Positions 9,663 to 59,242 of a stretch of DNA of 64,000 bases are shown here, in pieces. The stretch spans positions 1 through 64,000 of the forward strand of contig CANONN010000013.1 of the NCBI GenBank assembly GCA_947567625.1, read 5' to 3'. How positions within the stretch are numbered: the stretch's first letter is position 1; each line of letters starts with the position of its first letter. This stretch comes from an uncultured Roseburia sp. Lineage in GTDB: Bacteria; Bacillota; Clostridia; Lachnospirales; Lachnospiraceae. Below the pieces are notes generated by a model. It made no database searches, had not been told where the DNA came from, and saw only the letters and a list, made by a program, of their open reading frames with translations. The position numbers and the translations under genes are program-made.

Positions 9663-9711
9663 ACATGCAAACTTTAAAGGAGCTTGCCCTGTAAAAACAT
9701 GGAGGATTCAA

Positions 9712-9820
9712 GATTGAAAATTAAAATTTTCAATCTGCAAGTTTGTGTCTGCGCAGCATCCACAAACTTGTTATGCACAAAAAGCAAATGCGAACGTTGT
9801 TCGCATTGCAGAAATGAGGA
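9712..9820 (+). repeat. Three-hairpin repeat element, copy 1 (upstream of the oxidase gene)
   Basis: Three consecutive perfect inverted repeats: 10-bp arms at 9712-9721/9726-9735, 10-bp arms at 9738-9747/9761-9770, and 9-bp arms at 9787-9795/9799-9807. The block ends in GCAGAAATGAGGA (9808-9820), which includes the ribosome binding site of the gene starting at 9826. A homologous block lies upstream of aroK on the other strand (23174-23265), with the same loop TCTGCGC and the same distance to the start codon. The arms differ between copies but remain complementary. Confidence 0.75.
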
Positions 9821-9825
9821 GAATT

Positions 9826-10251
9826 ATGATTACACGAGAACAGATCATCGGATTTATCCAGAAACAAAAGACGGCGTTTATCGCTTCCGTGGACGAAGAT
9901 GGCTTTCCAAACATAAAAGCCATGTTTACGCCGCGCAAGATTGAGGGAAATTGCTTTTACTTTTCGACTAATACCTCTTCCATGCGCACACAGCAATATA
10001 TGAAAAATTCCAAGGCAAGCATCTATTTTTATAAAAGAGGGCGTTTTCAGTATGAGGGCATTATGCTGACCGGCACAATGGAGGTACTCCAGGACCCGCA
10101 AATAAAAGAAGAAATATGGCAGACCGGCGATACGATGTATTACAAGCAGGGAGTCACTGACCCTGATTACTGCGTGTTAAAGTTTACAGCAGTCAAGGGA
10201 AGGCGTTACTGCGCTTTGAAATCAGAAAGCTTTCAAGTTGCAAAGTGGTGA
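9826..10251 (+). CDS. Pyridoxamine 5'-phosphate oxidase-family (split-barrel flavin) protein
   Basis: A 141-residue single-domain split-barrel protein. The family pattern is clear: KTAFIASVDEDGFPNIKAMF at the start, FYFSTNTSSMRTQQYMKN, ASIYFYK and MLTGTMEVLQD. Members bind FMN or F420-like cofactors and often act on small oxidants or are of unknown activity; true PNPOx activity is not implied. The longer open frame reaches back to 9745, but ATG 9826 is chosen because GAGGAG lies 4 nt before it, and the upstream extension is made of the repeat element. A MarR-type gene precedes it in the same direction, so redox- or drug-responsive control is plausible. Confidence 0.85.
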   Translation: MITREQIIGFIQKQKTAFIASVDEDGFPNIKAMFTPRKIEGNCFYFSTNTSSMRTQQYMKNSKASIYFYKRGRFQYEGIMLTGTMEVLQDPQIKEEIWQTGDTMYYKQGVTDPDYCVLKFTAVKGRRYCALKSESFQVAKW

Positions 10252-22514: not shown

Positions 22515-23168
22515 CTATCCCACAGCCAATTTTTGTACCAGCTCGGCACAGATCGCCGCCACATCTTTGTGGTCGGTAGCCACAGTGATATCCGCCGCCT
22601 TCTGATACGCTTCCCGGCGCTTTTCCATCAACTGCGCAATATATTCGACGTTCATATTTCCGTTTAAAATCGGGCGCTCCGTAGAATTTTTGACGCGCTC
22701 TAACGTAGTCTGGGGCGTCGCGGTGAGGAGCACAATGCGGCTGCTCTTTTTGAGATTTGCCACATTCTCTTCCCGCATCACCAGGCCGCCGCCGCAGGAA
22801 ATGACAGCCTGTCCCATATCCTCTAACGAACATACCGTTTTGCTCTCCAGATCTCTAAAATATGGCTCGCCGTACTTGTCAAATAGGTCCGTGATCGACA
22901 TTCCCTCCTGTTTCACGATCATCGCGTCCGTGTCGCGTTCCACCAGGGCAAGCGCCCGCTTCAGATACCGCGATACCGTGCTCTTGCCGGCCCCCATGAA
23001 ACCGATCAGCGCAATGCTTTTCGTTCCGCCTGCAAGCGCATTGAGCAGGGCAAGATTCTTCTGCGCCTCCCGCACGTCGTACTCCCCGCTTCCGACCAGC
23101 GCCACGCGCTCCGCAAGCAGTGCGGCCATTTTCTTGTCACAAAGCCTTAACTCTTTTTCCATATCCAT
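22515..23168 (-). CDS. aroK: Shikimate kinase with N-terminal chorismate-mutase-like helix
   Basis: Phosphorylates shikimate with ATP. The kinase domain starts near residue 51: P-loop GFMGAGKST, shikimate-binding DTDAMI and FRDLES, the SCGGGLV glycine loop and the lid with STERPILNG. The first ~45 residues, MEKELRLCDKKMAALLAERVALVG, resemble the first helix of AroQ-type chorismate mutases (L-x-x-L-L-x-E-R-x-x-L-V) but are far too short for that enzyme. Start ATG 23168 follows GGGGA; the open frame upstream is repeat DNA. A three-hairpin repeat element occupies the 127-bp gap after map. Confidence 0.92.
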   Translation of the reverse strand: MDMEKELRLCDKKMAALLAERVALVGSGEYDVREAQKNLALLNALAGGTKSIALIGFMGAGKSTVSRYLKRALALVERDTDAMIVKQEGMSITDLFDKYGEPYFRDLESKTVCSLEDMGQAVISCGGGLVMREENVANLKKSSRIVLLTATPQTTLERVKNSTERPILNGNMNVEYIAQLMEKRREAYQKAADITVATDHKDVAAICAELVQKLAVG

Positions 23169-23173
23169 ACAAA

Positions 23174-23265
23174 TCCCCATTTCTGCGCACGTTTTTTGCG
23201 CATAACAAATTTGTGACAAGTGCGCGCAGACACAAATTTACGTGTGAAAAAGGTATTTTTCACAC
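23174..23265 (-). repeat. Three-hairpin repeat element, copy 2 (upstream of aroK)
   Basis: On the minus strand the order is: 10-bp stem with 4-nt loop (23265-23242), 9-bp stem AAATTTGTG/CACAAATTT with a 15-nt loop containing TCTGCGC (23239-23207), paired TGCGCA hexamers (23202-23184), then GCAGAAATGGGGA. The distance from GCAGAAATG to the start codon is the same as in copy 1 (9712-9820). Stem sequences differ between the copies but complementarity is kept. Confidence 0.75.
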
Positions 23266-23295
23266 TAATCTCCATTTTCAACTGAACCTCCGGGT

Positions 23296-57775: not shown

Positions 57776-58414
57776 ATGGAACCAAAAACGAACTTTAAGG
57801 CGCTTTCAACCAAAGCCAAATTACAATATATCTGGGATTATTACAAACTTCCGTTTATCATTATCGGGACTATCGCAGTCGTGATCGGTTCTGTCGCGAT
57901 GCAGATCAGCAGCTATGAACCCCCTCTGTTTAATGTCATTATGTTTAACTGCAATCACGCCGTCGACACCACCGCCATCGGTTTCTATGATTTTTTGGAT
58001 GAGGAGGGAATCGAACATACCGACGCCGCGATCGCCCTGACATCCACTTTGAATTTTACAGAAAACGCTTCCACTACGATGTATGACCGCCAGACATTGA
58101 CAACGCTTTTATACGCGGGCGGACAGGATATTTTGATGGGTACCGGAGACGTCTATATGGCCTATGTGGAGCAAAACGTTTTGATGGATCTTCGGGACGC
58201 GCTGTCAGCAGAAACGTTACAAAAATACGAGGACAGCCTAATCTACAGCACGGTCGAGGAAACGGGGGAGACCTACCCCTGTGCCGTCGAATTGAACGGC
58301 AATTCCTGGCTGAAAAAGTATGATTACTATGACAACTGCTATTTTGGGATTCCCTACGGAGCCGGCAATTTGGAACTCGCCAAACAGTTTGCCGAGTACC
58401 TGCTGGCGAAATAA
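57776..58414 (+). CDS. Single-pass membrane protein of unknown function
   Basis: A 212-residue protein with a short cytoplasmic N-terminus, one membrane helix (LPFIIIGTIAVVIGSVAMQI, residues 25-44) and an extracellular domain. The outside part has NVIMFNCNHAVDTTAIGFYDFLDEEGIE and GGQDILMGTGDVYMAYVEQNVLMDLRDAL, which loosely resemble solute-binding-like lobes seen in small Lachnospiraceae membrane proteins. No catalytic motif. ATG 57776 is chosen because GGAGGG precedes it; the open frame upstream runs through the tRNA genes and is not coding. The 115 bp between the tRNA terminator and start contain a GC-rich hairpin (CCCCGTGC/GCACGGGG, about 57669-57707). Confidence 0.7.
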   Translation: MEPKTNFKALSTKAKLQYIWDYYKLPFIIIGTIAVVIGSVAMQISSYEPPLFNVIMFNCNHAVDTTAIGFYDFLDEEGIEHTDAAIALTSTLNFTENASTTMYDRQTLTTLLYAGGQDILMGTGDVYMAYVEQNVLMDLRDALSAETLQKYEDSLIYSTVEETGETYPCAVELNGNSWLKKYDYYDNCYFGIPYGAGNLELAKQFAEYLLAK

Positions 58415-58446
58415 CTCGCGCAAAAGATGACCGCGCAGAAATGAGG
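58415..58446 (+). repeat. Truncated copy of the three-hairpin repeat element
   Basis: Between two co-directional genes, GCGCAAAA ... GCGCAGAAATGAGG matches the last hairpin and ribosome-site part of the elements at 9712-9820 and 23174-23265. Only the terminal section is present; the start codon follows at 58454. Confidence 0.5.
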
Positions 58447-58453
58447 TTCATGT

Positions 58454-59242
58454 ATGAAATGTCCGGTTTGCGGCAATGAAGGAACAAAAGTATTCGATGC
58501 TCTTCTTTTAAACAAATATAAGGTGGATTATTTCGCCTGTGACGTCTGTGCCTGTGTCTTTACGGAAACGCCTTACTGGATCGAAGAATCCTACGAAGAT
58601 TCCATCACCGCCATTGACACCGGCATTATGAACCGCAATATCTCTTTTGCGATGGATACCAACTATATCCTGCACCATTATTTTGGCACTTCCGGGAAGT
58701 TTATCGACTACGCGGGCGGCTACGGCATCTTTACGCGCCTGATGCGCGATCTGGGCTATGATTTCTACTGGTCCGACAAGTATTCTCCCAACCTGCTCGC
58801 GCACGGCTACGAAGCCGACTCTCTCAAAGAAAAAGTAGAGCTGGTCACTTCGTTTGAAGCTTTTGAGCATTTCGCCAACCCGATGGAAGAGATCAGGGGA
58901 CTATGCTCATACGGAAATAATATTCTGTTCTCGACGCTGATCTACGACACAGAGCGCGGCATCAAACCCAAAGACTGGTGGTACTATGTCTTTGAGACAG
59001 GTCAGCATATCACATTCTACAGTGAAATCACCCTCAAATACATCGCTTCCGAGCTTGGGTTCCACTACGTCAAAATTAGTCCCGAGCTGCATCTGTTTAC
59101 TCAAAAAAACATCAGCAGCCGCAAGCTGCAAAAGTTAAACCGGCCATGGGGCAGACTGCAAAAGCTGCTGTTGTTTTACCGCAACCGCCGCCATGGCAAG
59201 TCCGAAGAGGACATGTATACCCAAAAAGCAAAACGTTTTTGA
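58454..59242 (+). CDS. Class I SAM-dependent methyltransferase with N-terminal zinc-ribbon
   Basis: A 262-residue protein. The N-terminus has four cysteines in two pairs (CPVCGNEG ... CDVCACVF), a metal-binding motif found on C-methyltransferases of sugar and polysaccharide biosynthesis. The SAM motif I is FIDYAGGYGIFTRLMRDLGY with acidic SDKY after strand 2; FEAFEHFANP is the post-I motif (E-H-F), as in the Methyltransf_23 group. A basic C-terminal tail ends the protein. The substrate is unknown; no sugar pathway genes are adjacent. The ribosome site ATGAGG lies within the truncated repeat element 40 bp after the previous gene. Confidence 0.85.
   Translation: MKCPVCGNEGTKVFDALLLNKYKVDYFACDVCACVFTETPYWIEESYEDSITAIDTGIMNRNISFAMDTNYILHHYFGTSGKFIDYAGGYGIFTRLMRDLGYDFYWSDKYSPNLLAHGYEADSLKEKVELVTSFEAFEHFANPMEEIRGLCSYGNNILFSTLIYDTERGIKPKDWWYYVFETGQHITFYSEITLKYIASELGFHYVKISPELHLFTQKNISSRKLQKLNRPWGRLQKLLLFYRNRRHGKSEEDMYTQKAKRF

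Follow-up and report, generated by a model that had tools for sequence, protein, structure and literature searches.

Two genes of the window (the whole stretch of 64,000 nucleotides analysed here, from a contig of an uncultured Roseburia sp.), one for a PNPOx-like oxidase and the other, on the opposite strand, aroK, are preceded by closely similar blocks that run up to their start codons. We asked what kind of element two such gene starts would share, how it reached them, and whether it may act on their translation. An earlier note on this DNA had proposed a dispersed cis-regulatory RNA or a mobile 5ʹ UTR with its own ribosome site. Both blocks were found where that note had placed them, as copy A on the forward strand and copy B on the reverse strand.

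Anatomy of the shared element

The features of the two copies, and of a third one in the window, are as follows (SD, Shine-Dalgarno).

9701..9705, + strand: SD1 of copy A, an SD-like GGAGG immediately left of the copy (sequence)
9712-9721/9726-9735, + strand: hairpin P1 of copy A, containing the start-like TTG 9714-9716
9738-9747/9761-9770, + strand: hairpin P2 of copy A (family-level stem pairing)
9748..9752, + strand: predicted pseudoknot 5ʹ strand TCTGC of copy A, inside the conserved TCTGCGC 9748-9754 (family-level pairing)
9788-9795/9799-9806, + strand: optional hairpin P4 of copy A (sequence, folding)
9808..9812, + strand: predicted pseudoknot 3ʹ strand GCAGA of copy A, complement of 9748-9752 (family-level pairing)
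9816..9819, + strand: SD2 of copy A, GAGG, six nucleotides 5ʹ of ATG
9826..10251, + strand: PNPOx-like oxidase gene 3ʹ of copy A (Pfam domain PF01243; ATG 9826)
23270..23273, - strand: SD1 of copy B, an SD-like GGAG left of the copy (sequence)
23265-23256/23251-23242, - strand: P1 of copy B, containing the start-like GTG 23263-23261
23239-23231/23215-23207, - strand: P2 of copy B (family-level stem pairing)
23224..23230, - strand: predicted pseudoknot 5ʹ strand TCTGCGC of copy B (family-level pairing)
23182..23188, - strand: predicted pseudoknot 3ʹ strand GCGCAGA of copy B (family-level pairing)
23175..23178, - strand: SD2 of copy B, GGGG (sequence)
22515..23168, - strand: aroK 3ʹ of copy B (shikimate kinase domain PF01202; ATG 23168)
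58380..58446, + strand: third, degenerate copy with the right end CGCGCAGAAATGAGG retained (core model, 20.6 bits, E 0.002)

The degenerate copy was followed by a methyltransferase-domain gene at 58454. From 5ʹ to 3ʹ, the element family is built of SD1 (usual), P1, P2, a loop starting with TCTGCGC, a linker that may hold optional hairpins, GCGCAGA, AAT, SD2 (GRGG or GGAG), six nucleotides and ATG. The core of P2 was TTTGTG/CACAAA, often extended. The TCTGCGC of the P2 loop and GCGCAGA are complementary and were predicted to form an H-type pseudoknot, whose helix ends three nucleotides before SD2; in copy A the 3ʹ strand is GCAGA alone instead of GCGCAGA, which leaves five pairs. Computed duplex energies of the pseudoknots, copy A with its five pairs left aside, lay between -11.2 and -20.3 kcal/mol. 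When six copies were folded without the pseudoknot, SD2 was mostly unpaired in four; in the other two, copy B and one long form, it was partly paired.

Between copies A and B the stems P1 and P2 had changed in sequence and retained their complementarity, and the distance from GCAGAAATG to ATG was 9 nt in both, just as the earlier note had it. Of the three successive hairpins described there, P1 and P2 held up; the third did not, being the optional P4 in copy A and, in copy B, a hairpin that the 3ʹ strand of the pseudoknot forms as an alternative. Likewise, TCTGCGC was indeed conserved, but not as a mere loop, given its complement shortly 5ʹ of SD2. The first reading had thus overlooked the pseudoknot, and also a start-like codon within P1.

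P1 hairpins, counted from a score of 8 upwards with G.U and one mismatch tolerated, were present in 168/206 copies and in 19/206 shuffled upstream stretches; in some copies, e.g. L185 and L225, P1 was unclear. The start-like NTGAR was located among the first bases of 125 of the 168 hairpins, which comprised 55 distinct arm pairs (some of them distinct by length alone), and was missing from the other 43. An SD-like 4-mer stood 4-15 nt 5ʹ of this NTG in 84 of the 125 copies, compared with 34/375 control windows further upstream, and was missing in 41. Of 103 upstream frames followed from the P1 NTG, 42 passed the ATG of the gene, 8 stopped close to it and 53 stopped earlier. Their phase relative to that ATG was random (31, 33 and 39 of 103), and no conserved peptide was found among the 103 frames compared, peptides and phases varying between subfamilies. 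Random phase and differing peptides speak against a leader-peptide attenuator with a conserved peptide. Thus, the upstream frame would act by opening the structure and not by its product. On this sequence pattern, translation of the frame is predicted, with somewhat better than even odds in our estimate.

Conservation of the fold in the family

To count pairing we used the 106 hits of a core model (R1), which correspond to 104 distinct rows and include two opposite-strand echoes. The model was built from 38 of 40 seeds hand-picked among pattern matches with a downstream ATG; it includes P2 and excludes both the pseudoknot and the ATG, and its E-values are rough. Cells of the alignment are sequences counted and not independent events. 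Across P2 and the pseudoknot, 93.8% of cells were paired, versus 91.9% (sd 0.2) in shuffles and 29-49% in slid structures. Double-change cells numbered 20 (15 in P2 and 5 in the pseudoknot, there in 3 of its 7 pairs) versus 3.7 in shuffles. In the pseudoknot, 90.0% of cells were paired; of its 64/641 unpaired cells, 47 fell in the outer three pairs, the outermost being the weakest with 23. A variable triplet beside this outermost pair was paired in 116/145 copies, and 20 of its 35 distinct combinations could pair versus 10.6 (sd 2.2) when shuffled; 20 was reached at least once in 2000 shuffles.

Among one-sided transitions, those giving G.U exceeded those giving A.C by 28:3 in P2 and by 62:18 in the pseudoknot (in total, 90 to 21). 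Since G.U stands so far above A.C, it is the fold of the coding strand that is kept. Compensatory change in the stems rather than random decay, which the earlier note had made the mark of selection on RNA structure, was seen in the family alignment, in the comparison of P1 and in a related family (E2, below). We regard formation of the pseudoknot in the mRNA as very likely.

Position at gene starts and dispersal

The genome of the window (3.42 Mb, 110 contigs) gave at least 69 blastn matches for copy A and at least 61 for copy B, many of which belong together as parts of a single place. After merging there were about 64 places, with partial and variant copies counted, and with fragments consisting of the left end alone or of a very short right end alone dropped. 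In 80 stretches fetched from this genome, R1 marked 54 distinct places (78 rows, duplicates merged by hand), the weakest at E 0.005. An exact pattern of the element was present in at least 114 stretches of the GTDB r220 collection, and among the 80 matches listed most were titled Lachnospiraceae or genera, such as Roseburia, that we take to be members of this family. These matches in the same genome, in GTDB and with R1 refute the idea that two AT-rich hairpins of the window resemble each other by chance, an explanation which has practically no probability left and nothing in its favour after the genome search. The further copies in related genomes that the note had called for were thus present in both pattern and model searches.

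In a sample of 200 Lachnospiraceae genomes, one per genus, the search with R1 detected copies in 37, and at least 25 copies in four, high copy number being confined to some genera. In a class-wide sample of 245 genomes, the rows listed showed three with a match. Besides the genome of the window these were a genome from its own family and a genome from a different family, the latter at E 8e-4, close to the chance level. Some copies were located at or near contig ends (the end of C26, L075; near the end of C34, L003). Such positions would be expected if repeats interrupt the assembly, and copy counts may be low.

The preference for gene starts was strong. Among 159 copies found by pattern, 148 had an ORF of at least 40 aa within 2-13 nt downstream (11 had none) and 117 had ATG at one exact distance. 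An ATG opening such an ORF lay 5-7 nt downstream of 82/106 model hits, compared with 177/10600 random positions in the same loci. Within 30 nt an ORF of at least 40 aa followed 99 of the 106; of the seven without one, four preceded another element, two were the opposite-strand echoes and one had no start. Orientation was biased as well: within 20 nt, 96/106 hits had ATG and ORF downstream in the sense direction, and 3/106 had them past the left end of the core on the other strand; within 80 nt, the numbers were 99 and 16 of 106. The search was seeded from copies with an SD-like right end, and fragments elsewhere could escape it. Upstream, 115/196 copies had an ORF on the same strand that ended no more than 100 nt before them.

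The genes served were diverse. The only clusters among 148 downstream proteins were seven of two members each and one of seven, a member of which (L013) matched ABC_tran, so that hardly any targets are orthologous and a fixed regulon was rejected. Pfam analysis of ten downstream genes gave DeoC, ketoacyl synthase, nucleotidyltransferase, class I tRNA synthetase, transketolase, IGPS, metallo-hydrolase, AIR synthase and ABC transporter, as well as a class II tRNA synthetase just below the cut-off.

Ten copies of 126 nt in the same genome, selected by an exact 26-nt left end, had a mean identity of 99.3% (minimum 97.6%), while their 60-nt flanks were unrelated (26% and 30% identity); nine of them preceded ORFs of at least 40 aa and one an ORF of 22 aa. 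We then compared orthologous sites by eye. At the fabG-fabF junction the element was absent from 21/21 other genomes of the genus, although G020 carried there an element with the pseudoknot of another family and G023 a remnant like the right end. The site 5ʹ of trpB, where the genome of the window has a right-end remnant, lacked the element in 23/23 relatives, two of which were only 60% alike in protein, and the trpC site lacked it in 14/14 readable relatives (11 loci were too short). At trpC, GGGAG follows the upstream stop codon in the genome of the window and GGGAGG is found there in G035, and therefore the element appears to lie between the native SD and the ATG. In a second genus, the gene after one copy of G256 had no element in 13/13 readable relatives. 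The aroK site of G032 contained no element but began with AATGGAGGTTAGTGTGA, as copy B does at its left end, and a trace cannot be told there from a shared native start region. R1 at E 0.01 matched none of the 73 loci taken from relatives for their orthologous genes, and matched all three positive-control loci at that threshold.

The comparison of orthologous sites shows that presence of the element differs between lineages. Gain is favoured because relatives lack the element and copies are near-identical, and dispersal by mobility is in our view very likely. Terminal inverted repeats, looked for in a single copy from the 99%-identical set, were not found (best 7 of 15 nt, offsets 0-5), and no target duplication was found (at most 1/10 copies; lengths 3-7, several offsets tried) with ends not fixed by an empty site. 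No clean empty site turned up in a close relative, the main matches being only about 65-82% identical in both genera tested. For a mobilising gene one candidate profile was searched, that of the Y1 transposase (PF01797), and it was absent from the genome; at 93% completeness, such a gene may have escaped detection. At each of five tandem junctions (the pattern permitted 2-9 nt) the next P1 NTG lay 5-7 nt after the SD of the previous right end, that is, in the place of the ATG.

Carriage by plasmids or phages was considered and rejected. The plasmid sequences searched gave no match; 12 faecal phage scaffolds, unverified, matched, and two of the four inspected had cellular-looking downstream proteins by eye (one P-type ATPase-like, one ACT-domain-like). 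A viral contig collection gave one exact match.

Explanations, known systems and related families

Our preferred reading, to which we give a probability of roughly 70%, is that the element is a mobile cassette which lands between the SD and the ATG of a gene and brings in a new ribosome site, with a probable influence on translation. Insertion would divert the native SD to the short upstream frame starting within P1, and SD2 of the cassette would take over initiation of the gene. Such a takeover would let insertion be tolerated even before housekeeping genes. The pseudoknot beside SD2 would set, and may switch, translation initiation: its end, three nucleotides 5ʹ of SD2, is taken as within reach of the initiating 30S subunit, and ribosomes translating the upstream frame would unfold the pseudoknot together with P1 and P2; without such ribosomes the pseudoknot would stand beside SD2. 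We predict as likely a real effect on translation, in whichever direction, up or down. Of the two forms proposed in the earlier note, the mobile 5ʹ UTR with its own ribosome site is well supported, and the cis-regulatory RNA is plausible but putative, the downstream genes having no common function.

Other explanations, which are not mutually exclusive, account for part of these observations. The closest is a purely selfish structured repeat, whose fold serves mobility through a single-stranded DNA or RNA intermediate and whose location at start sites reflects survival of those insertions that happen to bring an SD. Many near-identical copies, the tandem junctions and high copy number in some genera only would agree with it. 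However, random insertion would give many antisense copies and copies elsewhere, whereas 82/106 hits lie 5-7 nt from an ATG and only 3/106 face an opposite-strand start; the excess of G.U over A.C fits the coding strand, though single-stranded DNA of that strand would fit equally. We consider this explanation unlikely, if still the best of the alternatives. The near-identity of copies with unrelated flanks also bears on a dispersed regulon, in which a cis-regulator of translation, be it riboswitch-like or one to which a protein or an sRNA binds, is retained since the genes need a common signal, and duplication is secondary. It speaks against such a regulon, as do the few clusters among the 148 downstream proteins and the orthologous genes that lack the element at the sites tested in relatives. 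The pseudoknot beside SD2, the fixed spacing and the sense orientation are nevertheless as in translational switches, and several targets are housekeeping enzymes; on balance we find it improbable. The stable helices directly 5ʹ of SD2, together with the many copies that follow an ORF of the same strand at no more than 100 nt, could also suit an mRNA-stability element, in which P1 and the pseudoknot shield RNA 5ʹ of the ribosome site from a 5ʹ exonuclease. This would leave unexplained the NTG and SD1 at P1 as well as the fixed spacing to the ATG, and we hold it to be the least probable of the three.

The element had no gathering-score match in Rfam 15 (window and 15 loci). E-value scans were also run on the region of copy A and on eight other loci. 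The best echo by bits on copy A was TD-2 RNA (RF03162; 27.6 bits, E 0.028), on the opposite strand and below the TD-2 gathering score of 48.7; TD-2 was not listed at E 1 in the eight other loci, which provide no control as an equal score would miss that limit. The main text of PMC2864571, in the portion consulted, makes no mention of TD-1, TD-2 or Shine-Dalgarno, and PMC7812874, as far as its consulted part goes, concerns 5S rRNA insertions and has no bearing on the element. No published description of the element was named among the literature matches listed, from a collection that lacks most subscription papers.

REP/RAYT systems (IS200-type) consist of short hairpin repeats adjoining GTAG/GGAG-like tetranucleotides. 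The element differs from them in its sense orientation at start codons, and no Y1 transposase (PF01797), the hallmark of IS200/IS605 or REP/RAYT, was found in the genome of the window. Dispersed repeats of small size are commonly treated as passive, or as acting on the transcripts that they join. The BOX, RUP and SPRITE repeats of Streptococcus pneumoniae are dispersed and structured like our element, can be co-transcribed and are proposed to be mobile, as is the element, and some BOX repeats carry expressed ORFs; in the part of PMC3049150 consulted, no fixed SD-start codon position or pseudoknot-SD-ATG layout is reported for them. The MITE-type repeats described there by terminal inverted repeats and target duplications differ from the element, whose 99%-identical set had neither, although near-identical dispersed copies with unrelated flanks are MITE-like. 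The odc1 (uORF-25-1) motif, with 272 examples in alpha-proteobacteria and most often with one gene, resembles the element in having a pseudoknot and an upstream ORF at the ribosome site; it has a conserved 11-aa peptide and an RBS within a stem, reporter mutants near its pseudoknot lose main-ORF expression, and it is not described as dispersed in the consulted part of PMC8632094. The translational riboswitches SAM/SAH, SAM-V and preQ1 share the small H-type pseudoknot, theirs controlling translation, whereas in the element the SD is 3ʹ of the pseudoknot and targets share no pathway. The element is thus riboswitch-like in its conserved structured 5ʹ UTR at a ribosome site, and its downstream genes (148 clustered, Pfam on ten) show no consistent pathway.

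In its way of life the element comes nearest to small dispersed repeats such as BOX, and in its layout to the odc1 leader; among dispersed structured repeats, the new points are the fixed position at start sites and the self-supplied SD. The element brings a ribosome site and a pseudoknot to the starts of dozens of unrelated genes of gut bacteria, which bears on gene-start annotation and on expression models for Lachnospiraceae. If the proposal is true, these genes are natural parallel experiments on how 5ʹ structure sets translation, and the question arises what recognises the start site during insertion; recognition could act on initiating mRNA or on single-stranded DNA.

A related dispersed family, E2, had P1 and the P2 core in common, another pseudoknot and the same layout. 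Its pseudoknot differs between species by a double change, being CTGGAGCG:CGCTCCAG in the genome of the window and CCGGAGCG:CGCTCCGG in most of the relatives listed. Blastn matches of E2 numbered 25 in the genome of the window, 23 in G006 and 12 in G032 (loci L061-L065, L421, L430, L437 and L444 in the former; L422-L449 in relatives). Further variants of the pseudoknot were seen by eye: CCGAGAACG:CGTTCTCGG, and CCTGC:GCAGG with a right end like GAGAAAGGTATGG 5ʹ of the start codon (L049, L050, the left flanks of L037 and L048, and the G020 fabF junction, L287). Tentatively, and with less than even odds, these could be families, told apart by their pseudoknots (TCTGCGC, CYGGAGCG, CCGAGAACG, CCTGC), of one class of mobile elements with a single architecture that targets the translation initiation site itself; its members would insert downstream of a gene's SD and ahead of its start codon, could form head-to-tail stacks, and would change how translation is initiated in dozens of genes per genome.

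Head-to-tail arrays of the same or different element families were observed before one gene at L065 (C4:64494-64807), L062 (C51), L027/L032 (C53), L354, L356, L385 and L389. Short hairpins ended directly 5ʹ of ATGGAGG-like sites in the left flanks of L018, L028, L063, L064 and L065, some of them perfect (e.g. L064, GTCGCGGC..GCCGCGAC), and there may be other structured units right before SD sites in this genome. At L061, a gene judged WecB-like by eye has the apparent start GTGAAAAATC, which was identical to the left end of an element, as if the upstream frame had become the start of the gene.
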